DNA of 64,000 bases from Neocallimastix lanati (nom. inval.) (Eukaryota > Neocallimastigomycota > Neocallimastigomycetes > Neocallimastigales > Neocallimastigaceae). Below, one piece after another: positions 12,821-63,149 of this stretch. The stretch is taken from assembly GCA_016946835.1 (NCBI GenBank), contig JACVTC010000014.1, forward strand, positions 325,001 to 389,000, written 5' to 3'. A program made the position numbers and the translations under genes. Below the pieces are notes generated by a model, which did not search any database, was not told the origin of the DNA, and worked only from the letters and a program-made list of their open reading frames with translations. Numbering within the stretch: position 1 is the stretch's first letter; each line of letters opens with the position of its first letter.

Positions 12821-15800
12821 ATGTCTTCAAGAGTTATTAATATTCCTCCAAGGGAAAATAGAAAGTCCAAGGAAGCTTGGGCTTTAATTGATAGTACTAT
12901 ACCATGTGAAGAAATGAAATTCAACTTGACTCAAAACAAATTAGCTAAAATTGAACACTCTGGTGCTTATGTATATCATGATTATTCAGAATGTATTGAT
13001 ATTGCTTGTCCAACAAATAGAGTAAGCATATTATATATATTTATGTATATAATTTTTTTTTAAAAAAAATAAAAAAATAAAATTAAAATATATATTAATT
13101 GACTGCTTATTTTTGTTTTATTTATTTAATTTTAGAAAATTAATTTCTGTTCTACTTCTTATCTTGGTTTAAATCAAGATCCAAGAATGAAACAAGCTGC
13201 TTATGAAGCTATTGAACAATATGGTTTAAGTCCTCTTGGTAGTGCACCATTTGGTGGTTTAACAAATCTTCATGAAAAATTAGGTTACCGTTTAGGTAAA
13301 ATATATGGTTTACCATATGGTATTACTACTTCTGGTGGTATGTATATAAAAATAAAATTTTAAATAGTGATGATTTAATATAATTAAAATTTAGTAAATA
13401 GATAAAAATAATTAATTTTTTTTTTCTTTTTAAATATCTTTTTCTTAAAATAAATAAATATATATTTAATTATAATATTTTAAATTACTAGCTACCCTTG
13501 CTAATATGACTATTATTCCATTAATTGTTGGTGCTAAGGATTTCGTTTTTTCAGATGAATTAAATCACACTACCATCATTGATGGTATTGATTTATCTAA
13601 AGCAAAAATGATTAAATATAAGCACAATGATATGGAAGATTTAGAAAAAAATGTTAAACTAATTCATGAAAAATTCCCAAATAGTGTAAAATTAATTATT
13701 TTCGATGGTGTATTTAGTATGGAAGGTAAGGAATATTGATATAGAAATGTGATTATTTGATAAATTGTCATTATTATTTTTTTTTTTTATTTATTTGTAT
13801 TTATATTAAATGTATTTTATGTTTATTTTTATAATATGCTTTATATTTAATAATGTTTGAAATTTTTTTTTTAAAAAAAAATAGGTGATGTCTGTGATTT
13901 ACCAAACATTGTTAGAATTGCTAAGAAATATAATTGTAAAACAATGATTGATGAATGTCATGCTCTTGGTATTATTGGTATGTTTATAATTTTATAATTT
14001 TATTTTAATGACATGTTTTTGTCTATATATAAAGTAGAAATGATTATAAAAAATATAGTTTTCTTTATATTTGTTTTTAAAATATTTTAATAATATATAT
14101 TCTACCATTATTATTTCTTTATTTTTTATTAATAAATATCTTAAATTTTTGCTATTAAATACTTTAATTCAATCATTTTTAATCTTTCGTTATTTTTTGT
14201 TAATAAAATATTTAATAATTTTTTTTTATTTTTATTTTTATTTATTATTTTTTTTTCTTTAATATCAAGGTCCACACGGTTATGGTACATTAGATTATTT
14301 TAATATGCCAGGATCTGTTGATTTTGTAACAGGTACATTAGTTAAATCTCTTTGTTCTCATGGTGGTTATATTTGCTGTAGAAGAGATTATCAAAATAAG
14401 TTAGAAAATTCAAGCGGTATTATTTTTTCTACAAATAATACACCAGCTTATGCTGCTACTTCATTAAAGGCTCTCGATTTAATTGAAGAAGAAGGTCCAA
14501 ATAGTGTTCGTGCTAGACTTCAACGTAATGTCAAGCATTGGAAAGAAGGTGTTCGTAACCTCGGTTTTGAAATTATTGAAGGTGTCAGTTGTGTTTGTCC
14601 AATTATGATTTATGATGAAATTAATGGTTTAAAGTTTCAAAAACGTTTATATGAAGAAGGTTTGAATTTCTCAGCTGTTGCTTTCCCAGCTGTTCCAAAG
14701 AATATGGCTAGATTAAGAACTACTGTTTTAGGTTCACTCACTGATGAAGATATTGATGAAGCTTTAAGTATTTTAGGACGTGTTGCTCAACAAGAATTTC
14801 CACAAATTTTAGTTAATGGGTCTACTAAGATTTATCCAGCTCTTCCAAATCCATTAAAACCAAGAATCCCTGAATTCGATACTTATGAAAAGAAAAGTTA
14901 TCTTCATCCAATTAACAAACCAAAGTATGCTGTTATTGGTGTTGGTTGTCGTTTCCCAGGTAATATTAAATCTAAGGAAGATTTCTGGGAAATGCTTACT
15001 TCAGGTCGTTGTCTTACTTCAGAAATACCAAATGATCGATGGAATACTGCGGAATGGTATAACAAGGAACCAAAGAGAGGTACTATGCAAACCACAAGAG
15101 GTGCTTTTATGGAAGATGCATTCTATTTTGATAATAAATACTTCTCTATCTCTCAAAATGAAGCTAAAGAAATGTCTCCTGAACAACGTTGGTTAATGGA
15201 ATTAGCAGTTGAAACCTTTGAAGATGCTAACATCAATCCAAAGAAATTAAAGGGTTCAAGAACTGGTGTATTTGTCGGCTCTTCTGGTATGGACTTTGTT
15301 TCAGCCCAAATTTCTCATGCTAATGATTTAACTCAACATTCCGCTACTGGTCTAGAACTCTCAATTCTTGCTAATCGTATTTCTTACTTCTTTGATTTGA
15401 ATGGTCCATCCATTTGTACTAATACTGCTTGCTCAGCTTCAATGACCGCCTTAAATCTTGCTATTAATTCAATGATTACTGATGATTGCGATGCTGCACT
15501 CGTTGCTGGAACTAATTTATTATTTACTCCAGGTAGTTATGTTGCTTATTCTCAACTTCGTGTTGTTTCCACTGATGGTTCATGTAAGCCATTCGATAAG
15601 AATGCTGATGGTTATTCACGTATTGAAGGTGCTGGTATGATTTTAATTAAGCCATATGAAAAAGCTGTTAAGGATGGTGATAAGATTTACTGTGCTATTT
15701 TAGGTAGTGGTACTAATGAAGATGGTCATACTCCATCATTAACTATGCCATCTTACAGTTCTCAATGCAAGTTATTAACACATGTTTGCGAAAAATTTGA

Positions 15801-18800
15801 TATTGATCCAGCTTCAATTGATTATGTTGAAGCTCATGGTACAGGTACTGCAGTTGGTGATCCAATTGAAGCTCGTTCCATTGGTTACGCCTATGGTCGT
15901 AGAGTTCGTGAAGGAAAGCAAATTAAAACTACTCGTCCAGGTGAAACTGAAGAAATTTTAGATCAACCTACTTTCCCATTACTTATTGGTTCAAGTAAGG
16001 GTAATACTGGTCATGGTGAATATTCAAGTGGTATTATTGGTATGATTAAGGCTATCTTAATGTTATACCACCGTACTATGGTGCCAACCATTGCTCATAA
16101 GGAAATGAACCCAGCAATTGATGCTGAAGGTTTAGGAATTAAGGTAGCTACTAAATTGGAACCATGGACCACTCCACATACTTTACGTATTGCTGTTAAT
16201 TCTTTTGGTTTTGGTGGTTCCAATGGTAATGCTATTTTCGAAGAAGTTGTTAATGAAAAACCTGAAGATTTTAGTATGAAAATTAAAGATCCAAAGAATC
16301 CTGTTGTTGCGACTTTCTCCGCCTATGATGAAAAGACCCTTCAAAATCTTTTAAAGAAGTGGAGTACTGAAGTTCCAAATGAAACTCTTTTACAAGAACT
16401 TTTCGTTATCTCTCAATGTCATGAATCAGAAAGTATGCGTTCTGCTATGATATTTAGCTCCGTAGATGAAGCTAAGGCTTTAATTGAAGAAATGAGAAAT
16501 GGCAATGTTGAAAAGTTTAAGAGACATGAGAAAATTTACATGAAGCGTGTTAAGATTAATGAAAAGCCAGGCATTAACTTTGCTTTTTCTGGTCAAGGTT
16601 CTCAATTTATAAATATGGGTAGACGTATGTATCAAGTAAATGGTCTTTTCAAGAGAATTGTAGACTATTGTGCTGCCGTTCTTGTTACCTACAATGGTGG
16701 TGAAGATATTTTTGAAAAGTACCATATTTTCAAGGGTGATGTTTCTCAAATTAGTGAAGCTGATCTTTCTCTTCCACAATACTCTATTCTTGCTATTGGT
16801 GTTGCTCAAATTGCTCTTACTGAAATTTGGAAGGCTATGGGTGTTACTCCAGAAGCTGTTTTTGGTCACAGCATGGGTGAAGTTGCTGCTGCCTATGCTG
16901 CTGGTATTCTTACACTTGAAGATGCTATCTTATTATTATACATGCGTGGACATATTCTTGCTCAATTAGATGGTACCGGAAAAGGTATGCTAGCTCTTGG
17001 ATGTTCCGTTGAGCAAGCTCAATACTTCATGAATAATAAGCCAAATGTTTTCATTTCTGCTGTTAATAGTGCTAACTCTATCACTTTAGCCGGTGATATT
17101 AGCCAAATTAATGCTATCGCTCAAGAAGCTAAGGCTCAAAACCTCTTCGCTGTTGTTTTAAAGGTTAAGCAAGCTTTCCATTCTCCATATGTTGAAGGTG
17201 CTGAACAAGCCTTTAAGGAAAGCATTAGAGGTATTAGTGAACGTACTTCCGCTCCAAAGTGTAAATTTATTTCTGCATGCTTTGGTCAAGAATATGAAGG
17301 TCCATTTGATGAAAACTACTGGTGGGCTAACATTCGAAATCCAGTAAGTTTCTATGCTGCTGCTAGTATTGGTACTCAATTCTCTAAACGTGTATTGGAA
17401 ATTGGTGCTCACCCAGTTCTTAGTGTGTATCTTAAAGAAATTTATGGTAAAGAATATGTTTATCAATCATTATCCAGAAAGATGGATGATGTTGATAGCA
17501 TGTGTCGTACAACTGCTGCCTTATTCATTGATAATGCCGTTGAATTCATGGATTACACTCAAATTTGGGAAGGCAAGGTTGATCTTCAACGTGTTAAAAC
17601 TGGTGACGTTGTACCATTAAAGAAATTACGTTCTATTAACTTCTCTATTCCAAAACATGTCTGGAACCGTAAGGCCATTAGAAAGGAATACACTGATCGT
17701 TTTGGTACTGATTCTAATCATGAAATTTATACCACTCGTGAATTTGTTCTTAAGGAAATGGGTCTCAGTGAAGATGATCTTAAGCTTCTTAAGGATATTA
17801 AATCTGGTAAGGTTGCACCAGCTGCTGGAGCTGCTAATGAAACCTCATTTACTGCTCAATCCCCAGTTTCTATTGCTAAGCCAAAGCCAAAGCCAAAGGT
17901 TGTTCCACAACTTCCAAAGGCTACCTTTATTCCAACTAATGCTAATGTTGTCTATAGTTCTGGTAATCAATGGAACTTTGAAAATCATAGATATCTTCAA
18001 GATCATGTCGTCAATAAAAAAATTGTTCTTCCAGCTGCTGGCTCCGTTAGTCGTGCTTTCAGTGGTTTCGCTACTGCTCATCCATTAAAGGTTGCTCAAA
18101 GAGCCATCATTTCTCTTGAGGATTTGAAGTTTGATCGTATGGGTATCTTTGATAAAACTATTGATTTTAATACTGCCACTGGTCCAATGCCAATTACTTA
18201 TGAAGAGGAAAGAAGTAACCAAACCTATAAAATTATCTTTAATGAGGATGTTGAAGTTTCTTCAGGTAAATTTAATAACAATGATGAAACTGAAACCTTA
18301 AAGAATATTCCAGCTGTAGATTACTTCATTAATCAATGTTCATCGATCGCTGGTGGTCAAGGTGTTACTCCAGCTATGTTTTATAATCGTACTCAAGAAA
18401 TTGGTTTAGATTATGGAGAGGAATTCCGTTTATATAAGGCCATTCGTTCAGGAAAGAATGTTGCTTATGGTAAATTAACTGTAAGTAAAGAACATCAAAA
18501 GATGGTTTGTCACCCTGCCGTTTTGGATAATTGTATTCAAATCGTTTTTGCCTCTGGTGTTGCTGCTGGTGATTGTCAAGCTCTTCCAGTAGGTATGAAG
18601 AAGGTTGTTTTAAGTCAAGGTGGTCATTTCCCAGAAGGTACTCTTATTGTTGCTACTGAATTAGTTAAACAAGATATTAAGGAATGCGTCTCCAATGTTT
18701 ATATCTATGATGAAAATAAAAATATCTTTGGTTATGTTGAAGGTTTGACAATGTCTTTCCGTCGTAGTAGAGCTGAAAAGGCTATTGATTGGATTCATGT

Positions 18801-21800
18801 CTTAGGTTTTGAAGAAAAGGCTCCAACAGCCAATGAATACTTACCAGTCGATTGTCGTAACGTTATTGTCATGTGTACTGAAACTCAACAAGATGAAGCA
18901 AATGCATTTGCCACTCATATTGGTAGTGTTGTTGCCGGTTTACAAAACATTTGGGTCTTACCAGGTAACTATATTGAAAATATCCAACAAATGGTTGAAA
19001 ATAAGATGATTAAACCAAAAGAAACATTTATTATTGATGCTAGCTTCATTGATAGTCCTGAAATTGATCGTGCATTCATGATTCTTAAGACTGTGGTTAA
19101 CTATGAAATTCCAACCTTATTTGCTGCTTCTAAATACATAAAGGATGAATCAGCTCAATCTCATGCTGTAGCTACCAGTAAGGCAGTTATTGGTATGGTT
19201 CGTGCTGCTCGTGCTGAATGTAAGGTTCCATTATTCACTGCTCATACCGATAAATTCGAGGATTTATATTTGGCTGCTTTACGTAGTGGTTTAACAATGG
19301 ATGATCCAGAAGTTGAAATTATTGATGGTAAGGTTCAATGTGTTAGATTTATAAAGCTTGATAAGGAACCCGTAGTTAAATCTTCTAATATTAAGTTAGA
19401 AAGAAGTGCCAATGGTCAAATTGGTCAAATGAAGTATAGTGAATGCATTGGTCTTCCGGCCTACACTGATGATGAAGTGGTCATTAAGGTTAAGGGTGTA
19501 TCCATGCAATTCAAAGATATTATGACTGCTATGGATGCTCTCATTGGTTTCGATAGCTATGAACCTGGTATGGAATGCATTGGTCGTGTTGTTGCCATTG
19601 GTAAGAATGTCGCTAGCAACCCAAGAAATCAATTACAAATTGGTGATCCAGTCATTGCATTCTCTCACAAATATGGTCATCTCTTACGTACGTATGGTGT
19701 TGTTGATCCACTCTCTCTTCAAAAAATTCCAGAAAGTATGTATAAGGTTGAATATGCTGGTATCTTTATTGTTTTCATTACTGCTTATTACAGTTTACAT
19801 GTTCGTGCTGGTGGTATTAAACCCGGCCAAACTATTTTAATTCACGCCGCTGCTGGAGGTGTAGGTCAAGCTGCCGTGAAGTTATGTCAACTCTGGGGTG
19901 CTAATATTATTGCCAGTGCTTCTGCTTCGAAGCAACAATTCCTTCGTGATACTTATGGTCTTGAGCATGTAACCAACTCCAGAGATCCAGAAGAATTCTA
20001 CCGTGATGTGATGAAGTGGACTGATGGTAAGGGCGTTGACTTTGTGTTAAACTCTCTTTCCGGAAAGAGTCTTAAAATGGGTATTAAGTGTTTGAAGAAT
20101 GGTGGTAAGTTTGTTGAAATTGGAAAGACTGATATTTTAAATGACAGCAAGTTAGGTCTACATTGTCTTCTTAATAATATCTCCTTTGTCTCATCACATA
20201 TTGATCTTCTCAACAATCAACAAATGAATTATTACAAGAATATCTTGTTTGAAATGTTTAGTACTGGTAAGCTTACTCCAATTCCTGCCAAGATCTTCCC
20301 AGGTAATAAGTACAAGGAAGCCTTCTTCTATCTTGCCAGTGGTAGAAATATTGGTAAAACTTGTATTGAATTCGAAGATAACATGAGCTATGAATGTACT
20401 CCAGTCACCTTAATAGATCCAAATTTAACCTATTTAATTACTGGTGCTTTTGGTGGTGTCGGTTTAAGAGTTGTTCTTTGGCTAGTTAGCCGTGGTGCCA
20501 AGAACATTTTATTAACCACTAGTAGTTCTGTTGAAAAACAATATGAACAACCAATTATTAGATCTTTATTGGAAAAGGGTATTAATGTAATGATTAAGAC
20601 CTGTGATATTACTGATTTGACTAGTGTTCAACAATTATTCCAACAAACTACTCCAAGAATTGCTGGTGTCTTCCATTTAGCAAATCGCTTTGCTCCAGGT
20701 TTAATTAGTACTTCCGATCTTGCTTTGCTTCGTAAGGGCTTCAGTGCTAAGGCTGAAGGTGCATGGAATTTACACTTGGTTACTCTTCAAAAGGCTCATC
20801 AAGTTCAATTGTTTGTTGTCTTTTCTTCCATTCTTGATGTTTTAGGTAATCGTGGTCAAACTGCTTATGGTGCTGCTAATGCTTTCTTAAGTTCTATTGT
20901 TGATCATCGTAGAGAAAAAGGTCTCTCTGGTAATTGTATTGCTCTTCCAGCTATGCGTGGTTCTGGTTACTTAGCAAAATGGAATCAAACAAAACAATCT
21001 AAGGACTTTGAACAATTAATTGCTCTCTTAGATACTGATGAATTAGTTAATGTAATGGATGGCTTAATTCGTTATGATCTTCCAGCCAATATATATATGG
21101 CTAAAAATTGGGCAAATATGTCCTATGATGCTACCTTTGTTGCTCCAGTTACTCGTAGTATTTCTCATTTACGTGGTGTTAATCCAGTTCCAGTAGTCAC
21201 CTTCCCAACTGAAAAGAAGCTTGATCTTCCATCTTTAATTAGAAATTGTGGTGGTCATTATATTGCTGAACCAACACATATTCCAAGATCAAGTGCCACT
21301 ACTACTTCTTCTGTACGTTCCTTTACTCCAGTTGCTGTGAAGAGCTTTAGTCCAGTTCCTGTTAGTCCAGTTCCTGTTTCCGTTCGTACATTTACTCAAG
21401 ATTCTGTTGCTCCAGCTGTTCAAGTTAGATCTTTCCAACCAACATCACTTGCAACTCCAGTTGCTGTTCAAGCTAGATCTACTCCAGCTCCAGCTCCAGT
21501 TCCAGTTCCAGCTTCAGTTCCAGTTGCTGATGCTAAGCCAATCAGTAGTCTTAATAAGAATAAATTAACCAAGGATATTACTGATAAATTACAAAGTATG
21601 TTAGGATTAATTGATGAAGAAATTGATGTTACTATTCCACTTCGTGTCTATGGTTTAGATTCTTTAACAGCTATGGAATTAACCAAATGGATTGAAAGTG
21701 AAATGAATATTGAATTCAGTCAAAGTCAATTATTAGGTGATGATATTACTACTGAAGATTTAATTAATATTATTATGGATGGTTCTTCTTCTGCTCCAGT

Positions 21801-24800
21801 TACAGAATCCACTCCAGTAGCTCCAGCTCCAGAAGCTCCAGTAGTTGCTCCAATTACTCAAACTAGAACTTTCCAACCAACTCCAGTTGCTGCTCCGGTT
21901 GCCCCAGTCGCTGTTCAAGCTAGATCTTTCCAACCAACTCCAGTTGTTGCTCCAGTTGCTCCAGTTGCTGTTCAAGTTAGATCAGCTCCAGTTTCAGCTC
22001 CAGTTGCTGCTGCTAAACCAACTAGTGGTCTTAACAAGGATAAATTAACTAAGGATATTACAGAAAAATTACAAAGTATGTTAGGATTAATTGATGAAGA
22101 AATTGATGTTACTATTCCACTTCGTGTCTATGGTTTAGATTCTTTAACAGCTATGGAATTAACCAAATGGATTGAAAGTGAAATGAATATTGAATTCAGT
22201 CAAAGTCAATTATTAGGTGATGATATTACTACTGAAGATTTAATTAATATTATTATGGATGGTTCTTCTTCTGCTCCAGTTACAGAATCCACTCCAGTAG
22301 CTCCAGCTCCAGAAGCTCCAGTAGTTGCTCCAATTACTCAAACTAGAACTTTCCAACCAACTCCAGTTGCTGCTCCGGTTGCCCCAGTCGCTGTTCAAAC
22401 TAGATCCTTCCAACAAGCACCAGTTGCTACACCAGTTGCCCCAGTCGCTGTACAAACTAGAACTTTCCAACCAACTCCAGTAGCTGCTCCAGTTGCTGTT
22501 CAAGCTAGATCTACTTCAGTTCCAGCTCCAGCTCCAGTTACTGCTGCTAAACCAACTAGTGGTCTTAACAAGGATAAATTAACTAAGGATATTACAGAAA
22601 AATTACAAAGTATGTTAGGATTAATTGATGAAGAAATTGATGTTACTATTCCACTTCGTGTCTATGGTTTAGATTCTTTAACAGCTATGGAATTAACCAA
22701 ATGGATTGAAAGCGAAATGAATATTGAATTCAGTCAAAGTCAATTATTAGGTGATGATATTACTACTGAAGATTTAATTAATATTATTATGGATGGTTCT
22801 TCTTCTGCTCCAGTTACTGAATCAACTCAAGTTACTCCAGTAGCTCCAGTAGTTGCTCCAATGACTCAAGCTAGAACTTTCCAACAAGCACCAGTTGCTA
22901 CACCAGTTGCCCCAGTCGCTGTTCAAACTAGAACTTTCCAACCAACTCCAGTAGCTGCTCCAGTTGCTGTTCAAGCTAGATCTACTCCAGCTCCAGTTTC
23001 AGCTCCAGTTTCAGCTCCAGTTGCTGCTGCTAAACCAACTAATGGTATTAACAAGGATAAATTAACTAAGGATATTACAGAAAAATTACAAAGTATGTTA
23101 GGATTAATTGATGAAGAAATTGATGTTACTATTCCACTTCGTGTCTATGGTTTAGATTCTTTAACAGCTATGGAATTAACCAAATGGATTGAAAGTGAAA
23201 TGAATATTGAATTCAGTCAAAGTCAATTATTAGGTGATGATATTACTACTGAAGATTTAATTAATATTATTATGGATGGTTCTTCTTCTACTTCAGTTAC
23301 AGAATCCACTCCAGTAGCTCCAGTAGTTGCTCCAATTACTCAAACTAGAACTTTCCAACCAACTCCAGTTGCTGCTCCGGTTGCCCCAGTCGCTGTTCAA
23401 ACTAGATCCTTCCAACAAGCACCAGTTGCTACACCAGTTACACCAGTCGCTGTACAAACTAGAACTTTCCAACCAACTCCAGTAGCTGCTCCAGTTGCTG
23501 TTCAAGCTAGATCTACTCCAGCTCCAGTTTCAGCTCCAGTTTCAGCTCCAGTTACTGCTGCTAAACCAACTAGTGGTCTTAACAAGGATAAATTAACTAA
23601 GGATATTACAGAAAAATTACAAAGTATGTTAGGATTAATTGATGAAGAAATTGATGTTACTATTCCACTTCGTGTCTATGGTTTAGATTCTTTAACAGCT
23701 ATGGAATTAACCAAATGGATTGAAAGTGAAATGAATATTGAATTCAGTCAAAGTCAATTATTAGGTGATGATATTACTACTGAAGATTTAATTAATATTA
23801 TTATGGATGGTTCTTCTTCTGCTCCAGTTACTGAATCAACTCAAGTTACTCCAGTAGCTCCAGAAGCTCCAGTAGTTGCTCCAATTACTCAAACTAGAAC
23901 TTTCCAACCAACTCCAGTTGCTGCTCCGGTTGCCCCAGTCGCTGTTCAAACTAGATCCTTCCAACAAGCACCAGTTGCTACACCAGTTACACCAGTCGCT
24001 GTACAAACTAGAACTTTCCAACCAACTCCAGTAGCTGCTCCAGTTGCTGTTCAAGCTAGATCTACTTCAGTTCCAGCTCCAGCTCCAGTTGCTGCTGCTA
24101 AACCAACTAGTGGTATTAACAAGGATAAATTAACTAAGGATATTACAGAAAAATTACAAAGTATGTTAGGATTAATTGATGAAGAAATTGATGTTACTAT
24201 TCCACTTCGTGTCTATGGTTTAGATTCTTTAACAGCTATGGAATTAACCAAATGGATTGAAAGTGAAATGAATATTGAATTCAGTCAAAGTCAATTATTA
24301 GGTGATGATATTACTACTGAAGATTTAATTAATATTATTATGGATGATTCTTCTTCTACTCAAGATGTTACCCTAGCCCCAGTTGCTGTTCCAACCTCAA
24401 TTGTTACTCCAGCTAAAATTCCGGTTATTTCACAATCAAAAACTTTCCAAACTACTCCTGTTGCTGCACCAATTCCAAAACCAGTTCCAGTAAGAAACTT
24501 TAAATCTACTCCAGTAACTACACCAGTTGTTGCTCCAACTACAAGACCAGTTCCAGCTAGAAAACTTCAATCACCTCCAGTAGCTTCACCAATTCCAAAG
24601 CCAGCTCCAAAGCCAGTTCCAGTAAGAAATTTCCAATCAACTCCAGTTACAGCTCCACGTGCTCTTCCAGTAGCTACATCAAATACCCAAATTCCAATTG
24701 CTACTGTTAAGAGAACTAGTGGTCTTAACAAGGATAAATTAACTAAGGATATTACAGAAAAATTACAAAGTATGTTAGGATTAATTGATGAAGAAATTGA

Positions 24801-26409
24801 TGTTACTATTCCACTTCGTGTCTATGGTTTAGATTCTTTAACAGCTATGGAATTAACCAAATGGATTGAAAGTGAAATGAATATTGAATTCAGTCAAAGT
24901 CAATTATTAGGTGATGATATTACTACTGAAGATTTAATTAATATTATTATGGATGGTTCTTCTTCTGCTCCAGTTACTGAATCAACTCAAGTTGCTCCAG
25001 CAATTACTGAATCTGTCGCTTCAACACCAGTTAAATCTTATCAACCAACACCAGTTACAGTTAGATCTGCTCCAGTTGTAGCTCCTGCTCCAATTAGATC
25101 CTTCCAATCAACACCAGTTACTGCTCCAAATTCTCAAGTTAGATCTTTCCAACCAACTCCAGTAGCTGCTCCAGTTGCTGTTCAAGCTAGATCTACTCTA
25201 GCACCAGCTCCAGTTGCTGCTTCTAAACCAACTAGTGGTCTTAATAAGGATAAATTAACTAAGGATATTACAGAAAAATTACAAAGTATGTTAGGATTAA
25301 TTGATGAAGAAATTGATGTTACTATTCCACTTCGTGTCTATGGTTTAGATTCTTTAACAGCTATGGAATTAACCAAATGGATTGAAAGTGAAATGAATAT
25401 TGAATTCAGTCAAAGTCAATTATTAGGTGATGATATTACTACTGAAGATTTAATTAATATTATAATGGATGGATCTCCCGCAACTTCAGCACCGGTTGCT
25501 GCACCAGTTGTTAAAGATACCATGGCATCAATTACTCCAGTAGTTCCAACGAATTTTAATGTTCTCCCTGTTGAAGTTCATTCTAGTGTTGATCCTCTTT
25601 ATCAAAATATTTCTTCTATTCAAAAATCTACATCAATGGTTACTCCTGATAGTGTAGCATTAAAGAATGAAATATGTGATAGATTACAAAATATGTTAGG
25701 TTTAGTAGATGAAAAAATTGATCCAGCTATTCCACTTCGTGTTTATGGTTTAGATTCCTTAACTACTATGGAATTAACCAATTGGATTCAAAGTGAATTA
25801 AAGGTTACATTACCACAAAGTCAATTATTAAGTGATGAGATAACTACAAATGAATTAGTTAGTATAATTATTAATTTATTAGCTAATAATAATAATAATA
25901 ATAATGGAACAAATTTCTATAATGCCCCATCTAACAATAATAGTCTGGATTTTAATGATGTTTCAAATTCTAAACCAGTATCAAGTATTGCTGATAGTGA
26001 AAGTACTTTTGATGCCTCACTTGTAAATCAATATAATCCAGCACATGAAACTATAATAACGGATGATTTATTAAAGAAGAGAAGTGCTTTTTCTGGAAAT
26101 AAACAAGAACTTGTTAGAGCTTTGAAAAATGAAGTAGTTGAAAAATTACAAGATTTATTAGGTTTAGTTGATGAAAATATTGATACTAATGTACCATTGC
26201 AAGTTTATGGTTTAGATTCTTTAACTTCAATGGAAATTGTTAAATGGGTTGAGAATGATAAAAAAGTAGAACTACCACAATCAGCTTTATTAAGTAGTGA
26301 AATTACTACTGAAGAACTTGTTAATATGATTGCATCAAAGATTACTGGTGAAGATTTAGTTAAAGCACCTTCTTATGATCAATATATGGATAATGAATTA
26401 CTTATTTAA
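12821..26409 (+). CDS. AOS-PKS megasynthase with ten tandem ACPs
   Basis: Exons 12821-13021, 13136-13337, 13492-13725, 13885-13977 and 14270-26409 give 4289 residues. Domain order: alpha-oxoamine synthase (about 60-415), KS (about 460-890), AT (about 1010-1320), DH (about 1465-1720), structural KR half, ER (about 1955-2270), KR (about 2290-2480), ten ACPs (2700-4280). The PLP-dependent AOS domain keeps INFCSTSYLGL, DELNH, Asp235 and His238 in DECH, and the Schiff-base lysine Lys269 in GTLVKS. KS keeps Cys631 (TACSAS), His766 (HGTGT) and His825. AT has Ser1111 in GHSMGE and AFHS at 1212-1215, which in the family indicates malonyl-CoA. DH has His1489 and Asp1663 (LDNCIQ) but Lys for the usual Gly of HxxxGxxxxP. 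ER has AAAGGVG; KR has Tyr2443. No methyltransferase, thioesterase or C-terminal reductase is seen. Inferred role: reducing chain assembly, then decarboxylative release onto an amino acid by AOS. All catalytic residues look intact. Confidence 0.9.
21540..26330 (+). repeat. ten tandem acyl carrier protein repeats
   Basis: Each repeat encodes an ACP of about 75 residues with the phosphopantetheine motif GLDSL. The modified serines fall at residues 2708, 2868, 3046, 3207, 3384, 3563, 3766, 3938, 4073 and 4227 of the rebuilt protein, so spacing is 135-203 residues. Repeats 1-8 are almost identical in DNA over about 190 bases (e.g. 21592-21780 against 22072-22260), including third codon positions. 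Repeats 9 and 10 differ clearly (LTTMEL and LTSMEI in place of LTAMEL). Linkers are Pro/Ala/Val-rich and reuse short modules such as RTFQPTPVAAPVA and VAVQARS, with the longest between repeats 6 and 7. Tandem ACPs are known from PUFA synthases, where extra carriers raise output; ten is at the top of that range. Confidence 0.95.
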
Positions 26410-39012: not shown

Positions 39013-40242
39013 ATACATTAAATATATTAGCATACAGAATTATGGGAAAGATTATATGATAATATTGGATTAAAAAGTATGTATAAATGTTATTTATGTA
39101 AGAGTATAACACTTAATTGTATAAAGTTTTCACTACTTACCAATTGGGTAATTGGTAATTTTAATTATAGTTCTATTCAAGCTCATAATAGTGGAATATT
39201 ACAAATATGTTTATATGGTGATTATTTGGCAACTGCAGGTGCAGATAGAACATGTAAACTTTATGATATTAATAGTGGAATGTGCTTAAAAGTATATAAA
39301 GGACACGAAAAATGTGTTCTCTGTGTAAAAATGGATGAAAAAAAAGTTAAGACTTACGATATTATTAAAAATATATATGATTATATACATACATATATAT
39401 ATAAACAATTAATAATAACATTTTTTTTTTATAAAAATGATAAAAATAAAAAAAAAAAAAATGAAAATATATATTTTTGAATAAATTAAAATATATAAAG
39501 ATTATTACTGGAAGGTAATTTTAATAATAATAAATGAAAATATAATTACTATCATAATAATTAATTATATTATTATATATTAATATATAATTTCCATTAA
39601 CAAAGTGAAGATCAAACAATTAGAATATGGAATATAAGAACTGGTGAAGAAATTGTAAAATTAATTGATCATAAAGGTTCTGTAAATTCAGTAACATTTT
39701 ATGATTCAACTTTAATGTATGAAATAAAAATTATATAATAATTTTTTATATGTATCTATTTAAACAATTTTTTTTGAAATTGATATAATTAATAAATATA
39801 TAAAAAATGAAAAATATATATATACAAAAAATATATATATAGATCGGGATCTAGTGATAATGTAATAATAATTAAAATGCTTTACCTTTTTAATAATATT
39901 AATTTATATATTAATTTATATATTCATATTCTTCACCTTCTTTTCTTTTTTTTTTTTTTTTTTTTTTTAAATATTCTATTTATTTATATATTTTTAAATT
40001 CAAAAATTGAAATCAATTTAAAATTATCACAGACAATTAAAATATGGAAAATGGAATTGATTAAAAATAATAATAATGCTATATCTAAGAAAAATAGTTT
40101 ACTGAATAAGGTTAATTTAGAATATCGGGTTGTATGTTTACGTACGCTTTTTGGTCATACAGCATCTGTACAATGTGTTGATACCTTACCTACTGTATGT
40201 ATATCAGGTTCAAGTGATGGAACTATTCGATTATGGCATGTT

Positions 40243-40293
<51 letters not shown>

Positions 40294-42786
40294 CTATTTT
40301 TTTATTTTTTTATTTTATTTTATTTTTTTTTTTCATTTTTAATGTAATTGAATAATTTAAAATATTTTGATTTTTAATAAATATAATAAATAAATAAAAT
40401 TAATTTATATTATATTATTGATCTCAACATTAATATTAATATTATTATTATTAATGTAATTAAAATTATTATTATAATTATTATTATTTCATTTCGTTCT
40501 TTTTTCTATTATTACTATATTATTTGTATATTATTGTTGAATTTTTAAAGTGGAAATTGTATAAAAATTATATACCCAACATTATTGAAATCGATACCAG
40601 TATGTAAAATGTGTCCTGAACTTATAAAAATGGAAAATATTGAATATGAGCCAATATCATGTATTAAAATAACTTATAATTATATAGTAGCAGGAACATA
40701 TTCAGGTAATATATATTTATTAGATTTGCATGCTAAAGAAATGACAGCAGATGATGTCTATAAACCAGAATGGACAAATTGGAAAAAATCAAATTTTGAT
40801 ATAGTTAATATTGATACTTCAAATGAAAATAATAATGATAATGATAATAACAATAATAACAATAATAATAATAATAATAATTATAATAATAATAATATCA
40901 TTAATTTTATATCATCCTCTCCTCAAGCAATGTCAAGTAAAAAATCAAGGCTTACTATTGATGAGGATTTCTCTGTTCCATGTAATATATTAACAATTAG
41001 AGGAAGAGAATTTGCTTATGAAGAATTGATTGATTGGGTTAATAACAAAGATAGTATAAAATTAAACAGAATTTATAATTTAGATATTAATGCCATTCCT
41101 ATATTTCCAGATGAATTTAATGAGAAAACATTAACATCGTCAGATCAATCTCAAACAAATAAAGAAAAAGAGAACAATAAAAATAATGAAGAATTAGTGA
41201 ATAATAAGGAAAATAGAAATAATGAAAAAATAAATAAAAAAAATGCTATAAATAAGAAAAATAATAAGTCATTATATAATATTGATGCTTTAAGTGATGA
41301 TATGAACACTACTGAAGATTATAATAGCGGTGATAAAGAGGAAACAAAAGTTGATAAAAACAAAAAGAAAAATGGTAAATCATCGAATAGAAATAGTGAT
41401 AATAGTTCAAATGAAAAATCAAAAGTAACAAATTTAACTCCAAATAATAATAACACTCTTAGTAAAGAAAATAATTTAAGCATGATAGATATGGTAGATT
41501 ATCGATATTCTCATTCATTATCAAATTCAAATTTACAATCCTATCAAAATTATGAATATTTTGAAGAAGAAGATGATGATATTACAGTTTTCGAAAGACA
41601 ATTTTCTCTAAATTCAAATTCATTATTTTCGAAGGAGAATAGTTTAGAAGATATTGTAAAACCATCCTCAATACCAGTATGGGTTTCAGGAAATAGTGAC
41701 AAATCAATAAGCAATAATGAAAAAACAGCAAAAGGGTTATTATCAACACCTAAATCATTAATTGAAGCAAGAAAAAACCACGGTAAAGACAAAACACAAA
41801 TTCCAAAGAGACCTTTATCTATAAAAAAAACTTCAACCTATCAAAATAAAAGTAGGAGTAAAAATAATTTAAGTTCTGGAAAATACAGTTCAAGTAAAAA
41901 GAAAAATAAAACAAAATTGGAAAAAACTGATGCAAAAAAGAGTTTAGAAAACTATATTTTTGAAGATCTTGATAATAAATTGAATAAAGATGAAACTACA
42001 AATAATGATAATCCAACTAGTGAAACTAATAATACAGTTCTTAATAATGAAAATGCTAAGGCAGCTGAAATCCCTAAAACTGAGGAAGTTATTGAAATAA
42101 ATAAAACGAAAAGTGAATCAAATATTGTGAAAACTACAGAAGATAACTCAAAAATCGAAAAATATTTGAAAGAAAGATATTCAAATAATTCAAAAGATTC
42201 TACAAATTTAACCAAAAAATATATTGGTAGTAATATTCATCATTTTAAGTTGGATATGAATGCTGCAAAATGGATTTTAGGTGTTCAAGCTGACGCTTGG
42301 CGTCTAATTGCAGGAGGATGTGAAGGGAAATCTATATTTTGGAATCATAAAGTAGGAGTTCCTATATTTGAAATTAATAAAGATACTACATCAATTGTAA
42401 CAATACCAAGTTTACACGCTACGAAAAGAAAAAGAAAAACACAAAAATCAAAATATCATTCAACAAATGATCATTTAAATAATGATAATTATAGTCAACA
42501 TGAGAGCCAGTCTCAAAATGAAAATAATAGTAGTAATTATAACAACCAGCAAAATAATCAATCTCATTATGAAAATAATAGTTATAAAAACTCTAATAAT
42601 AGTGGAGATTCTAATAATTCGAATATTAAGAATAATAAAAACATTATGAATGCTGGTAAACTTCATTCATTATATACATCTGGTGAGTATCAACCTATTA
42701 CAGATGTAATATTTAATGATAGATTCATTATTTTATCAGATATTAAAGGAAGACTTCGAATATGGGAAGTACATGATTTCAAATGA
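38152..42786 (+). CDS. F-box/WD40 repeat protein (SCF substrate adaptor)
   Basis: Exons 38152-38505, 38725-38859, 39031-39345, 39501-39514, 39606-39716, 39843-39861, 40033-40247 and 40551-42786 close in frame to 1132 residues. Exons 4 and 6 are only 14 and 19 nt, each carrying part of a WD strand (IITGS; SGSSDN). An F-box lies at about 128-160 (LPHSIAYEIIVYTSPKDINT ... KKWRKL). Seven WD-type blades follow, with GSEDQTIRIWN, GSSDNTIKIWK and GSSDGTIRLWH the clearest. A hydrophilic Asn/Ser/Lys-rich insert of about 500 residues separates blades 5 and 6, and a second of about 90 separates 6 and 7; the last blade is at the C-terminus (GRLRIWEV). The architecture is that of Cdc4/Fbw7 or Met30-type adaptors, which bind Skp1 through the F-box and phosphorylated substrates through the propeller for ubiquitination. 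Which substrate is recognised cannot be told. Confidence 0.85.
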
Positions 42787-48795: not shown

Positions 48796-51183
48796 ATGAA
48801 TGTATTTGAGAGGGATACTTTCAGAATAGAGATTATATCAAATTGTGACGATGTTACTTTATCATATCAAGATAGTGTTCTTGATCGATTAAATACTGAT
48901 GCTAAATTATATAGAACTTCATTTATTGATCAAGGTAAAAAAAAAAAAAAAGCCTTATTAATTCCTTTTTTTTAATTAATAATAATGTCATTAATATAAA
49001 CAAAATATATTTATTTATATATAAAAAAATAAAAAGAACATAGAAATTATGTTGGTAATCAACCATGTTTAGGAGGTCCATTTATTATATCTATTAAAAA
49101 ATTGAAAAAAAATCAAACTATCGATGTAAAGGCAGAAGATAATGCTGCATATCAAGCTATTGTTAGAATTAAGGATGTATGTGTATTCTTTATTTTAATT
49201 AAATAATTATATATTTCAAATAAAAATATAATATTTAAATTACTTTATTAAAAAAAAAATAAATATTAGTATTAATATTAAATAAATTATTTATTAATAT
49301 TTTATACAAAAATTAAAAATAAATTATAGGTTCCAGAAATAATTGCATTGATTCCATCAGTTACTGTACGATCACAATCAAAAATTCGTTCATCAACATC
49401 ATGGAAATCCGTATTACAAGCAATTCATCCTGAAATGAATGTTAATAGTGTATGTAAAATAAAAGAAAAAGATAAAACATTCCAAAAAAGACTGACAGAT
49501 TTAGATGAATTTCAGGTAAATTATTATTATAAATTTATATATTTACATGAACATATTAACAAATAAAAAAAAAAAAAAATTTTTTTCAGTTTTTTTTTTT
49601 TATATTAATATCTAATATCATCATTTTAATAATTTAAAAATAATTAGTGTGTTCGAAAATTCAAATTTGGTATTTTATATGCAAAAGAAGGTCAGAAATC
49701 TGAAGAAGAAATGTTTAATAATGGTATATATTTTGTATTATATATATAAAAAAAAAGCTTTTTCATTATTATTATATATTATATATATTATTGTATTAAT
49801 AATATTATTTTAATTAAAAAAATAATTAATAAAGAAAATGGAAGTAGAACATTTTATGAATTTCTATCGATTCTTGGTGATACAGTAGAACTAAAAAATT
49901 ATTCTGGATATGCAGCTGGTTTGGATTGTCAATATGGTAATACAGGAAATAGCACAGTTGTAACAAAAGTGAGTGTTTATTATATATATATGTAAATATA
50001 AATTCATATATATATGTATACATATGCATTAAATATAACATTGATAATATTATATATATTACTTTATAAATAAATTAAAATATAAATTTTTTTAAAAAAA
50101 AAATGTTTTTTTATATAGTGGAGAGATTATGAAGTAACATATCATGTATCTACTATGTTACCTTATGATAAAGAAGATAGACAACAAATTCAAAGAAAGA
50201 GACATATAGGAAATGGTATAACTAAAAAATATTTAGATAACTGTTATAATAAAGATATTAATTATACTTATTTTTATGTTTAATATTTATTTTTATAATT
50301 AAAACATAAAAAATAAAAAAAAAAAAATTTTTTTTTCATAAAATTAGATATTGTATGTTTTATATTTTTGGATGGTAAAGCAAAATTTGATCCAGGTACA
50401 ATCATATCACAATTTTTACATATTTTTATTGTTGTTCAACCATTACAACCTGAAGAAAGTTTAGGTATAGGATATAGGGTTACTGTAGTATCAAAAACTG
50501 ATGTTCCTATATTTGGACCACCACTTCCCCCTTCAGGTATTTTCCACAATATTTCATCATTAAGAGACTTCTTATTAGCTAAAAGTATTAATGGTGAATT
50601 TGCAGCCTATATGGCTCCAAAATTCTCCAAACCACAATTAAGAACTCGTGGTGCTTTAATAGAAGATTTAGTTAAAGATTACTACGATGTTTCCAGTATT
50701 ATTAATTCATCTCTTTCATTAAATAATATGTCAAATCAAGGAACAAATAACAATTCTCAATCCCCAACAAATATATCATTTGATGATGGTGTCATATCAA
50801 CAAATCGAAAAGGAAATGCACCATCAATAACAGCTGTTGAAGAAGAGGAAGATGAACCAGTAATGAAAAAATCACATAGTACAAATAATTTAAATAGCAG
50901 TGAAAAGGTAACCAGTGAAATAAAGTTAAATCGGTACGATTCATGTGATTCCATTTCAATGAAAAATCAAAACTCAAAAAATAATTGTAAATTGAACAAA
51001 AATAAATAATAATATATTCAATTATGTATTATAACAATAATAAATAAATATATAAATAAATAAATAGTATTAATAATAATAGTAATAAAAATAATAATAA
51101 TAGTAATAAAAATAATAATATAATTATAATAATAATAATAATTATAATAATAATAATAATAAAAATAATAATAATAAAAATAA

Positions 51184-52831: not shown

Positions 52832-53942
52832 TCATTGAAATTCATGTTTAGGATAATGATATCCATCACCGATACTATAAAACAAATAATAATATAATTT
52901 GTATAAATTAATATAAGGAAATTTAAAACTTTCAATTTTATATTACTTAATAGTTAATAAAATTATAATTAAACTATGAAATAATTTAATAAGAATATAT
53001 ATATATTTATTAATACTTACGAGGAAGGTACTGGTATAAACCAACGTTTAGGGTCTTTACCAAACACTTGATAGAAATTATCTAATTTTCCAATATCATA
53101 TGGGTTATGTAAAATACTCTTTGGTATATTTTTTGGACTATCTGATACAAAGAATGGTGAACGATTTCTTGGACTATCATATTCCTTAATTTTTGCATTT
53201 AACTTATCCTTTTTTTTTTTTAATTCTTTTCTTTTTTCTTCAATATTTGGATCAGAAGGTGAATTATTGATCAATTCTTCTAACTCATTAACTTCATCTT
53301 TCATTTTATCAATTTCTCTTTTACCATTATCTCTTATAATATTAAAACGATATCTACGAATTCTTCTTTGTTTATCAAATAATTCTAAAGTAGTAGCATT
53401 TCCCAATAGATTTTGATAAATGTGAGTAACACAGAAAATTAAAACTGATACTCCTAATACAAATGATAAAAAGATATGAATAATCCAGAGTTTCTTGTGA
53501 TCTGGGAAAAATATAAAATCATCAAATAACTTTAAATAGATTTTATTAAAATAAATAAAACAAAACAAAAACATAAATAAAAGTATAAAAAAAAAAATAA
53601 AAATAAAATTAGTTATTAAAGATTTTTATAAATATGAATAATCTATAAATTTTCTCAAATATCATTTATAAAATGAAACAGTATATATATATATTTTAAA
53701 TTTATCATATATAATTTACTCTATCTGAAAATGGGAAATCTATAACAAATGAAATAAAAACTGTTAGGAATTGGAATAAAATAAAAAATGAACCATAGAA
53801 AAGGAAAAGAATGAAATATTTATAATTATAGAAACCAACACAATTACTTAACCTAAATTTAATTATTTTTATTATAATGAATGTTTAAAACAGATTTATA
53901 TATATATAATTAATATAAAATAATAATAATAATAATTACATA

Positions 53943-59005: not shown

Positions 59006-62000
59006 TATAATAATTTATAATTTGATGTAAACTGTTTCAAACATAAAATTATAATAATTATAATGAATTAAAATCAATTAAATTTCAATATTAAAATTTT
59101 TCATATTTTTATTCTCATTTCAGTAATGAAAGCTTCTGAATTACTTCTTCATTCAGCAGAATCATTAAAACAAGATACAAAAAGTAAAGAAGGTCGAGAT
59201 GTTCTTGTAATTGCTATTCAAAGTATATTATCTGGTATTACGAATGTCTTAGATATCTATGATGAGACTGAAATTCGAAAAATTAAAGCAATATCCAAAC
59301 ATATTTGTGATCTTATTGATACAACTAATCAGGAAAAATCAGTTCAGGATTCAATTTCTTTATTACGACAACTTTCTCAATGTTCTATGGCTCTAACCAC
59401 ACAAGTAAGTAATAGAATACCAGAACTTTTATCTCAGCGAACTCAATTACGTTTACGTATATCAGTTGATACTATATCAAAAATTACTCCATTACTTTTA
59501 AATTCATATAAAGCAGAACTTAAAAATTTTGATTCAAATAGTATTACTATTTCAGAAAGTATAATATATAATATTTTAAAGAGAACCTGCCAAGATATTG
59601 ATAAAATAGTCAGTGATAGTGTGCCAGAAAAAATAGAAATTTCAAAAGTAAATTTAAAATCTTCTTCAATCTTATTTTCTTTTTTCTTTTTTTTTTTTAA
59701 ACTATATATAATCAAATAAAAACTTTTTATTTACTATTATTATTATTTTTTTTTATACTTAAATAAAAACATGTAATAAGGGAGGTGTATTGACACAAAT
59801 GATAGATAATGTTAATAATTGTCAATATATATTTCAACAATTGTATTCTAAAAAGAAATATAAAGATGCTTTTGATCTATTAGAAAAGTATCTTTCTAGT
59901 TATAATTCTGTTTTAAGTTATATTCAAGGTAAAATTACAATGAAATAACATATTATTTATTTATTTATTATTAATATGATATGTTGTATTAATTTTATAT
60001 GGATATATATTAAGATCATCTTCCAATTATATACGATCCAAATCAAAAACAAAATATTAGTTCAACAATTGGATTATTGAAAAGAAAAGAAATTGATTTT
60101 AAAGAACAAATTAAAAATTGTCAAGATAATAATTATCCATATTCATTAAGAAATCAATTAGTTGCTGAATTAGATTATCGTACTGAATATCTTCTATATC
60201 TTAAAGATTTATTTAATAAATGTGTGATATCATCTATTGTCGTTATTTCAAATGAAATATCAAATCATACCAATATAGATTCTATCTTTGGAAATTTTGT
60301 TAGTAATGCAAAAGCAGGAACTTTGAAAGAAGCCATATTACAGCCATATCATAAACAACAAATTCAAATGTTTATTCAAAGTCAAAAAGAAATGAAATCT
60401 ATAAAAAAATATAATAATAATAATAATAATGATAATAATATCATTAATAATAATGAAGATGAGAATGAAAATGAGAGTGAATCAATTGTGGAATTAATAA
60501 ATAAAATGGATAAATCAATACCAAGCATAACAGAAAAAGAAAGTTGTACCTTAGTTTATGCTTTAAATACTTATAAAAATCAATTTATATTTATATTAGA
60601 ACGGGTTGTAAATTTATTATCTAATGAAAATTTACAAACACATAAGGATGTTATTTTTAAAAAGATTAGTATTATTGGTCAATTCTATCCACTTCTTTTA
60701 AATACTAGTTACACTGTTTGCCAAAATCAAGATGATCATAATTTTAGTTTATTTTATGAAGATATCATAAGTACTTGGGAGCATTTTGTGAATGATGTTA
60801 AATCATATATTATTAATCAAGAAGGTGTATTTTCCATGAAGGATCTCCTGGATAGTTCAAGTATGAATATATTTTAAATATTATTTATTATGCATAATTA
60901 AATACATATTTTTATTAATTTATTTATTTATAATACTTATTAAATATTTATTATATTTAATTATATATATATAAAAAATATATATTTATTTACTAGGTTT
61001 AAATATTAATGGACATATTAAAGCACTCTGTAAAAATGAAGATATGGAAGATTTACCTTTTGAATATAAATCAATTTTAGCAACAGTAAATCAATTAATT
61101 GATATTTCAAAAAATGAATATATTAATACAGAAGATCATTCTTATCGTGATAAATTAAAAAAATCAATAAAAGAAATTAAAAATGGTATGTTTTTATTAT
61201 ATTTTCTAATTATTATTTAAATAATTATTATTATTATTATTATTATTTATATTTTTAATTTTATTATTATTATTATTATTATTATTTTAACATATATAAT
61301 ATTATATTTATAATATATTATAATTTTTAATTAAATTAACATATGAAATAACATATCTATGTATTTATATATAATTAATAATAAAATAATAATTATATAT
61401 ATTTATTATTATTATTATTAATTAATTAAATTCTTATTTAAATATTGTATATAAAAATAATAAGAAATGAAATTTATTGGAAAAAATATGAATAATCGTG
61501 AGGTTAATGATTCCACACGTAAAACTTTTGAAAAATTTAATGAAGCGATTAGTGCTGGAGATACTTCATTATTAATATCTGATATGACATTTGCTGATCT
61601 TAGTCAAATGCCATTATCATCAGACCAAAGAGATGAATTGGAAAGATTAAAATTTTCTGAAATTAAAAATCGTTTAACAAAATTGAAAAAAGATGTAGAA
61701 ACGTTGGATCAAATTATTCGTATTAATCGTAAATACGGTATTTCCAAAGAACTTCCACCAGTCCCATCTCCTGCAATGAAACGTAGTTCAAAGTCTGATT
61801 ATCTTCTTACACCAAGTCCTTTAACATTAAATAATAGTAAAAATGGACTCAAATCACCTTTATCCCCAAGAACTTCATTATCTCCGTTATCCCCAAGATC
61901 ACCACTTTCACTTGTTACCATGACTCGTCCTCACCTTCGTCAAAATTCCATATCTAGTAACACTAGTTTCAATACAGGTAATTTAAGTTTTATTTATCAA

Positions 62001-62213
62001 TCCCCATTAGCAGATAAAGATACCATTTTACAACCATTAAATAAAGATGAAGCTATCAATAATCCAATTAAAGTAAATATATATATGTATATATATTCTT
62101 TATATAATTATATTAAATAAATTATATACATAAAAAATATATATAGATATAAATATTTTATTATTATTATTTATATTAAATAATTAATTAATTATTCTTA
62201 TTATTCTTGCTAT

Positions 62214-62248
<35 letters not shown>

Positions 62249-63149
62249 TTTTAAAAAATATCTAAATATTAAGACCGCTGCTTATGATCTAAAATTAGCG
62301 GCATCAAAATGGAAACATGAGGATAATCCTTTGATTGATAAAGCTAATGTTATTGCTCAAAAATTAGATGAACTTTCCTATTATAATCAAATTATTCGTA
62401 GTAAACCACAAGCAAAAAAGATGCTAATTCGTACCGCTCAAGAAATGATGGATTGTGTTAAAATTTTAAATTATGCAAAAGAAATTAGTGAAACTTGTAC
62501 AGATAAACGACTTAAATATCAACTTCTTAATACAGTAGAACGTATCAATACCATAGGTCAACAATTAAAGGTTGTAGTTGCCGTTAAATCCGGTGGTCGA
62601 TTTGATATGGATGGTGATAAACAGTTAGTTATTTGTGCTGGTAATTTGGTAGAAGCTATTAAAAGCTTAATTCATGATTCTGAAGCGGCTTGTCTACGTT
62701 CAAATTATATACAAAAAAGACAAGAAGAAGAGGAAAAAGAAGAAGAAAAAGAAAAAGAAGAAGAAGAAGAAAAAGAAGAAGAAGAAGAAGAAGAAGAAGA
62801 AGAAGGAAAAACAGAACAGAAATTACCTAAAGAAAAAGGAAATTTTAAAGAAACTGAAATGGAAAAGGAAGAAAAGATAAAATTAAGTACTGCTAAATTT
62901 ATGGAAAAGGCAATCTCTATAAAGAAAAAGAAAGAACAAGAAAGAATTGAAAAAGAAGAACAAATAAGAAAGGTTATTGAAGATCAAAAAAGAAAAGCCC
63001 AAGAAGAACAAGAACAAATTAATAAAAAAGAACATTTTGATAATTTAGAGGAAGAAATCATTGAATTTGAAGAAAGTGAATTTATACCGACAGATAAAGT
63101 ATTACCTGATGAACTTTTAAACCAAGAAGATGAGGAAACTTATGAATAA
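58615..63149 (+). CDS. vinculin/alpha-catenin family protein
   Basis: Exons 58615-58849, 59124-59647, 59781-59928, 60015-60860, 60997-61185, 61465-62072 and 62274-63149 give 1141 residues against 1066 for animal vinculin. The head domain is recognisable from KKKILTPVVEVISELIILNE and ILQQKMPEGCNE; next come SILSGITNVLDIYDETEIRK, LLHSAESL and long helices of the four-helix-bundle type. A Pro/Ser linker (about 745-800: ELPPVPSPA, LSPRTSLSPLSPRSPLS) separates head and tail as in vinculin. The tail keeps YAKEISETCTDKRLKYQLLN, ERINTIGQQLKVV and the helix with EAACLRS. Vinculin links adhesion complexes to F-actin; the linker normally recruits SH3 and actin regulators. Odd: the tail does not stop at the usual end but runs on for about 140 residues of Glu/Lys-rich helix and an acidic terminus. 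An ATG at 58591 would add eight residues; I chose 58615 because MNTVTKKKILTP fits the family start. Confidence 0.9.
58935..59002. repeat. (TTA)n microsatellite in vinculin intron 1
   Basis: A pure (TTA)n tract of about 65 bases between exons 1 and 2 of the vinculin gene. Confidence 0.85.

Follow-up and report, generated by a model that had tools for sequence, protein, structure and literature searches.

A reducing polyketide synthase with a fused N-terminal α-oxoamine synthase domain in Neocallimastix lanati: a candidate source of sphingoid-like amino lipids

The window analyzed here, 64,000 nucleotides of the gut fungus Neocallimastix lanati (nom. inval.) (contig JACVTC010000014.1, positions 325,001 to 389,000; C46:325001-389000 of a genome of 199 Mb in 762 contigs), contains a gene in which an α-oxoamine synthase (AOS) domain is joined to a complete reducing polyketide synthase (PKS). 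The encoded protein is probably a reducing type I PKS that works iteratively and releases its chain through the covalently linked AOS. In the proposed mechanism, the core of ketosynthase (KS), acyltransferase (AT), dehydratase (DH), enoylreductase (ER) and ketoreductase (KR) domains would use malonyl units to lengthen a chain carried by tandem acyl carrier proteins (ACPs) and would reduce it fully. The AOS, with bound pyridoxal 5'-phosphate (PLP), would then condense the acyl-ACP thioester and a small amino acid in a decarboxylative Claisen reaction that yields CO2 and a 2-amino-3-keto lipid, that is, a 1-deoxy- or sphinganine-like base. AOS-terminated reducing PKSs are a known kind of enzyme; the N-terminal position of the AOS is unusual, because in the bacterial examples the AOS lies downstream of a carrier protein or KS.

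Gene structure and domain organization

The features of the gene are as follows.

12821..26409, + strand: AOS-PKS gene, 5 exons, 4289 amino acids (GT-AG introns, open frame; independent models P0121 and P0122)
12821-13021, 13136-13337, 13492-13725, 13885-13977, 14270-26409, + strand: exons of the AOS-PKS gene (gene model)
12821..14799, + strand: AOS domain, residues about 1-420, five exons (alignment, residues, AlphaFold2/Foldseek of the A. robustus orthologue)
13950-13952, 13959-13961, 14344-14346, + strand: AOS catalytic codons for Asp235, His238 and PLP Lys269
14929..16092, + strand: KS with Cys631, His766, His825 (Pfam; residues)
16579..17445, + strand: AT with Ser1111, Arg1136, His1214 and AFH motif (Pfam; residues)
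17968..18753, + strand: DH with His1489, Asp1663 (Pfam; residues)
19468..20361, + strand: ER with nucleotide-binding GGVG (Pfam; residues)
20428..20958, + strand: KR with Ser2429, Tyr2443, Asn2447 (Pfam; residues)
21517..26352, + strand: ten tandem ACPs, outer limits approximate (Pfam, profile)
21661, 22141, 22675, 23158, 23689, 24226, 24835, 25351, 25756, 26218, + strand: ACP Ser codons

All four introns are GT-AG, and the joined frame has no internal stop. The last exon, 12.1 kb long and unbroken, holds the Lys269-bearing half of the AOS and the entire PKS; AOS residues about 244-420 and all of the PKS share one open frame of 4048 codons. On this frame Pfam matches Aminotran_1_2, ketoacyl-synt N/C, Acyl_transf_1, PKS-DH, a zinc-dehydrogenase ER, KR and ten PP-binding stretches, which with the gene model gives the order AOS-KS-AT-DH-ER-KR-ACP x10. 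The initial annotation had placed an AOS with Lys269, Asp235 and His238 ahead of this PKS and its ten ACPs, and all three residues are found at those positions. Its remark that a thioesterase or reductase release domain is absent is likewise borne out, in that the 16 Pfam families matched on the last open frame include no release domain of the thioesterase, condensation or reductase type and only a short tail follows ACP10.

The fusion also occurs in gene models from two other fungi, and the protein is conserved in two genera and a metagenome. The N. californiae model (P0121, LY90DRAFT_512986, 4276 residues) carries the same fusion and differs from the window protein by 9 mismatches over 4276 aligned residues and one 13-residue gap, the PKS region being 100% identical across the 720 residues compared. 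The independent A. robustus model (P0122, BCR32DRAFT_248107, 3733 residues) is also fused and has seven ACPs; an orthologue from a JGI metagenome (P0123) has eight ACPs and begins within the last exon. We reject an artefact of exon joining, given that AOS and PKS occur in a single exon and in independent gene models. On the same grounds the sequences largely answer against AOS and PKS exons belonging to separate transcripts, which the initial annotation had named as a finding that would overturn it. The 13 residues missing from P0121 (29-41, within window 12821-13021) concern the choice of the exon-1 splice site. Since A. robustus keeps them, our gene model is supported, and the gap probably reflects a misplaced splice site in that database model.

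The PKS portion is a complete highly reducing set (KS-AT-DH-ER-KR-ACP) with its catalytic residues. The AFH motif of the AT is presumably of the malonyl type. Because only one KS is present, the single module would appear to be used iteratively. ACP1-8 are near-identical to each other, and ACP9 and ACP10 are divergent, pairing one-to-one with the terminal ACPs of A. robustus at 72% and 82% identity. Besides the two divergent terminal ACPs, the near-identical block has eight members in the window protein, five in A. robustus and six in P0123. Since orthologues differ in the number of copies but the copies hardly differ in sequence, the block looks like a case of concerted evolution; the pattern also suggests special roles for the last two ACPs.

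The AOS domain and its amino acid substrate

The AOS domain is homologous to the fold type I PLP enzymes SPT (serine palmitoyltransferase), KBL and AONS, and its core residues are present: Lys269, Asp235, His238, His160 and Arg393, which include the PLP Lys, the ring-stacking His and the carboxylate Arg. An AlphaFold2 model of the domain from the A. robustus orthologue (pLDDT 86.2) has a Sphingobacterium SPT as its top Foldseek match. The AOS is 94% identical between the two genera and the KS 95%; these comparisons point to strong constraint on the AOS domain, whose PLP residues are intact.

Residues near the PLP bear on the choice of amino acid. Val268 of the window protein replaces a Ser that precedes the PLP Lys in 33 of 34 relatives, and in the alignment with the SPT structure 3a2b the Ser of that enzyme falls at this position. 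In 3a2b this residue, Ser242, hydrogen-bonds the serine hydroxyl, and it is not exclusive to SPT as described in PMC3870968. Because position 268 is Val, serine as the substrate is not secured, and glycine or alanine may be at least as likely. The initial annotation had proposed a sphingoid-like product made through release by an AOS; such release of a PKS chain has bacterial and fungal precedents.

Several observations weigh against a releasing role for this AOS. At 15 sites it has a residue other than the one shared by at least 90% of 34 relatives, which were aligned out of the 120 matches listed; the replacements include Asn74 to Thr, Arg104 to Ala, Ala237 to Cys, Ser268 to Val and Arg292 to Ser. 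All 14 matched NCBIfam models, which were made for bacterial and archaeal annotation, score under their cut-offs (best 313.1 bits against 460), including the SPT equivalogs NF047600 (284.9 of 640 bits), NF047599 (227 of 500) and NF047603 (179.9 of 670). The AOS is N-terminal and distant from the ACPs along the chain, and among bacterial proteins collected beside carrier proteins all seven non-redundant embedded cases have the carrier protein ahead of the AOS (PMC3870968). Finally, no 3-ketosphinganine reductase was recognised by Pfam in 15 distinct open reading frames of the window, a scan that leaves short exons aside. The comparison with characterized enzymes suggested in the initial annotation divides: homology to SPT, KBL and AONS and the best Foldseek match to SPT on one side, the missed SPT equivalog cut-offs on the other. 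Its central proposal, that the AOS offloads the PKS chain onto an amino acid, keeps the support of a complete reducing PKS, the lack of a thioesterase, the intact PLP residues and the two-gene and fused parallels discussed below, and we hold to it as the probable reading.

Related synthases in the same genome

The genome has a second gene of the same subfamily (I) on C334, with eight ACPs and an intact AOS core. Another six AOS-PKS loci fall into three more subfamilies (II: C522, C13; III: C27, C235; IV: C124, C77). Core AOS residues are lost at all six, and five of the six have enoyl-CoA hydratase (ECH) or ECH-ECH-HMGS tails, HMGS being an HMG-CoA synthase-like domain. In subfamily II, C522 is open over 3492 codons and reads AOS without Lys, KS, AT without Ser, DH, ER, KR, ECH, ECH and HMGS. 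C27 of subfamily III has an AOS without Lys followed by KS-AT-ECH-ECH (the latter by Pfam), and C124 of subfamily IV an AOS without both His, KS, AT without Ser, DH, ER, KR and ECH (KS to ECH by tblastn). The other subfamily II locus, C13, is interrupted by several stops and frameshifts; in C77 the AOS and AT regions are recognisable and a KS was not found. In subfamily III, the sequence data of one copy consist partly of N.

A residue table for subfamilies II-IV has eight rows (C522, P0242, P0241, C13, C235, C27, C124, C77). Lys269 is retained in C124, the other seven having Tyr, Gly or Arg there. None of the eight keeps His160, which is Lys, Ser or Asn, and none keeps Ser210. The four rows of II retain His238, and the four of III and IV carry Phe, Tyr or Asn in its place. 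His160, Ser210, Asp235, His238, Thr266, Lys269 and Arg393 occur together only in subfamily I (window, C334 and A. robustus, all three tabulated). An ACP profile found 10 ACPs in the window protein, 8 in C334, 7 in P0122, 8 in P0123 and 1 in P0243, and none, at i-E values up to 1, in C522, C13, C27, C124, C77, P0241 or P0242. Three of three held-out PKSs were positive in the control, with 4 to 7 ACPs each; C235 was not judgeable. The fusion in one polypeptide, as the initial annotation had it, is confirmed, and the picture of a synthase made of a single protein is complicated by six paralogous loci in the same genome that have lost core AOS residues and, in the five that are readable, gave no ACP match.

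A search of giant proteins (0.55-1.75x the query length) yielded six with an AOS among 3287 candidates: the family I proteins of N. californiae, A. robustus and P0123, then P0241 (JGI metagenome), P0242 (P. finnis) and P0243 (ENA metagenome). P0242 aligns with residues 13 to 2597 of the window protein at 39% identity, has Tyr at the Lys269 position and an AT without Ser, Arg and His, and ends in ECH-ECH-HMGS instead of ACPs. Its HMGS is closer to eukaryotic HMG-CoA synthase (251.6 bits) than to CurD (34.0) or PksG (29.4). C522 and P0242 keep two ECH domains and the HMGS Cys, Glu and His motifs, whose residues we take to be catalytic, as in a beta-branching cassette. PKS-fused HMGS domains with intact catalytic motifs and a eukaryotic-like sequence occur in C522 (L102-L103), P0242 and P0241, and are possibly an independent origin of beta-branching. 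Between the P. finnis and metagenome copies of subfamily II, identity is 93% in KS, 86% in DH and 88% in KR/ER, against 73% in AOS and 71% in AT. The KS domains of C522, P0242, C27 and C124 retain their Cys, and no donor ACP for beta-branching was identified; the ER of C124 is 22-24% identical, and the motifs searched for were found in neither its ER nor its KR. A scan of IMG/VR with P0242 gave no match.

The KS search of the whole genome gave 26 matches: seven at AOS-PKS loci (58-100% identity), 13 near-full-length ones at 31-37% and six fragments at 29-42%. Of nine PF00155 matches in the genome, the eight fetched lack a tblastn match to the six AOS queries and resemble other aminotransferases, and we set them aside. 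Canonical SPT subunit 2 exons occur at two loci, C368 (L113) and C335 (L114), one C368 exon matching SPT2 at 191.5 bits in a PDB check, which argues against regarding the window gene as the sphingoid route of this fungus.

Origin of the fusion

In a 46-row tree the eleven fungal AOS-PKS rows form one clade (support 100/99) apart from the bacterial PKS-linked AOS, and the fungal SPT subunit 2 groups with bacterial PKS/ACP-linked AOS (99/96). A 57-row tree agrees for its four fungal rows. The larger tree drew on 24 of the 120 matches listed (every fifth) and 23 of 80 loci, with P0123 omitted as its AOS is partial; the smaller one used 12 of those matches, the 11 fungal rows and one SPT subunit 2 row, and dropped seven loci classed as having no KS, the presence of KS at bacterial loci being counted by tblastn. 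The program flags long branches and biased composition, so our reading uses the clade and gives no weight to the choice of its sister group; the KS, too, sits on a long branch in its tree.

Descent of the AOS from the fungus's own SPT subunit 2 is rejected because the latter groups elsewhere, although that row is partial and long-branched and so gives support, not proof. Descent from the bacterial PKS-fused AOS compared is rejected as well, the fungal rows falling outside that clade. The simplest account of these sequences would be a single fusion, after which duplication took place and three of the four subfamilies lost AOS residues. The N-terminal AOS-PKS fusion of the fungus apparently arose independently of the bacterial ones compared.

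Comparison with known systems

Among the closest known systems is PfSgaA/PfSgaB of Pseudomonas fluorescens MYb115, in which an AOS links the chain of an iterative type I PKS to an amino acid. As described in PMC12134224, PfSgaB in purified form catalyzes the condensation of serine with acyl-CoA, and the C24-C28 sphinganines require both Sga genes. That system has two genes and a separate, nearly serine-exclusive AOS, whereas the window protein is fungal, with a fused N-terminal AOS and tandem ACPs. In trees drawn without SgaB itself, the bacterial PKS/ACP-linked AOS form a clade that contains no fungal rows. Four other proteins (P0243, and L017, L034 and L065 from bacterial genomes) resemble the window protein in having PKS and AOS in one polypeptide; their AOS belong to a separate clade and are C-terminal, downstream of the KS, and they have no ten-ACP block. 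P0243, bacterial by inference, has the same PKS set in the order KS-AT-DH-ER-KR-ACP-AOS, its C-terminal AOS being 30% identical, and L017 is KS-AT-ACP-KR-DH-AOS by Pfam. A further group of bacterial proteins from Planctomycetaceae and horse-faeces Bacteroidales has long upstream parts before the AOS: L005 and L057 are AMP-ligase-ACP-AOS by Pfam, and L013 and L058 have an ACP motif upstream of the AOS.

Eukaryotic SPT (LCB1/LCB2) shares the fold and reaction class, and the fungus's own SPT subunit 2 falls outside the AOS-PKS clade. SPT is a membrane enzyme that uses CoA thioesters and consists of a catalytic and a Lys-less subunit, an arrangement that resembles the split into active and dead AOS seen here. 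In the fumonisin and AAL-toxin systems the AOS is a separate protein; the fumonisin genes are Fum1 and Fum8, and the likeness is drawn with no Fum8 sequence in the comparison. There, as is proposed here, it is a PLP enzyme that releases a fungal polyketide chain, and for fumonisin this release uses alanine (PMC3870968, PMC8102738). The HMGS and two ECHs of the related synthases are tied to PKS function as in the CurD and PksG beta-branching cassettes; unlike these, the HMGS is fused to a KS protein and is eukaryote-like. In Alternaria ACT-toxin, separate HMGS and ECH genes have been proposed for fungal beta-branching (PMC8102738).

Neighboring genes and PKS family 1

Outside the PKS gene the GC content of the window is mostly 9-24%. 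Two neighboring features are as follows.

39031..40347, + strand: WD40-repeat exons (Pfam), with a long frame, 40549-42786, behind them
50368..51009, + strand: Rap/Ran-GAP exon (PF02145, E 1.2e-15)

The 40585-42786 part of the frame behind the WD40 exons has no Pfam match. A weak DHHC palmitoyltransferase-like exon (53017-53625, - strand; below cut-off) and vinculin-family exons (59072-63149, + strand) are probably ordinary neighbors.

Swift et al. (2021, PMC8106346) described a PKS family 1 which, with families 2 and 4, occurs in all four gut-fungal strains studied. It has a conserved WD40 neighbor and two copies in N. californiae, one of them beside a Rap1-GAP, and the proteomics paragraph of that paper states that all family-1 copies are expressed (PMC8106346). 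From the WD40 and Rap-GAP neighbors and the second copy on C334 we infer that the window gene is this PKS family 1. The main text of PMC8106346, supplements aside, has no occurrence of 'oxoamine', 'AOS', 'aminotransferase', 'HMG' or 'sphing', and a literature search pairing polyketide synthase with 'aminotransferase class' in Neocallimasti- gave no match.

Alternative explanations and implications

The explanation most at odds with a releasing AOS is that the domain has lost catalysis and serves as a structural N-terminal dimerisation domain, the chain being released by hydrolysis or another enzyme. Three of the four subfamilies do retain an AOS without core residues, and the window AOS itself has 15 unusual substitutions, yet subfamily I alone keeps all seven core residues, in every sequence tabulated, and its AOS is 94% identical between genera; we consider this explanation unlikely. 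A different question is whether the product is a membrane lipid or a diffusible sphinganine-analogue or amino-ketone natural product, similar to fumonisin or AAL-toxin, which would be compatible with the proposed chemistry. The two SPT subunit 2 loci give structural bases another source, the family was published among secondary-metabolite PKSs (PMC8106346), and an alanine-using release is known for fumonisin (PMC3870968). However, no tailoring genes were recognised in the 15 window open reading frames scanned, and the strong conservation between genera fits a core lipid equally well, so that a diffusible product is quite conceivable without being the answer we would favor.

The proposed release mechanism may also extend to a heteromeric AOS-PKS complex, to which the window protein would contribute the active AOS and all ACPs. 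It would pair through AOS-AOS and KS-KS interfaces with its dead-AOS paralogues, as LCB1 does with LCB2, and these partners would add KS/AT/ECH or ECH-ECH-HMGS functions, so that the released amino-lipid would be beta-methyl branched. The architectures of subfamilies II-IV (AOS without core residues, ECH and HMGS tails, AT without Ser in II and IV), the retained HMGS motifs and the single fungal AOS clade are consistent with this. Proteins without an ACP must use that of another protein, and their closest ACP-bearing relatives are those of subfamily I; with no ACP match in the readable loci and, in subfamily II, constrained KS, DH, ER and KR beside drifting AOS and AT, they may be partner subunits, with a pairing AOS and HMGS-ECH branching. 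Against this, the 13 other near-full-length KSs and six fragments belong to proteins that may offer ACPs to the same partners, the genes are unlinked on different contigs and the argument is one from sequence; moreover, C124 keeps the PLP Lys, with an ER and KR lacking the motifs searched for, and II and IV each have a defective copy out of two, broken in II and KS-less in IV. We regard such a complex as a tentative extension, one we would sooner doubt than assume. Rather doubtful as a whole is the full picture of a machine with its only live AOS and an expandable ACP block in one subunit, dead-AOS partners as a pairing interface and an HMGS-ECH-ECH unit derived from eukaryotic-type HMG-CoA synthase, making beta-branched 2-amino-ketone lipids without oxygen. 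In this same doubtful picture, pairing through dead AOS domains would mean that megasynthases had arrived independently at the LCB1/LCB2 arrangement.

Dihydrosphingosine has been reported from C. churrovis in a source silent on the product of this enzyme (PMC12471499). The release mechanism that we favor suggests an aminoketone or sphingoid-like chemical class for what appears to be PKS family 1, one of three PKS families shared by all four gut-fungal genera studied and expressed as protein. Through its sister megasynthases, with their dead AOS domains, one particular complex and one particular branched product become open to test. The system may provide an alternative means of varying sphingoid-like lipids in organisms reported to be without desaturases.

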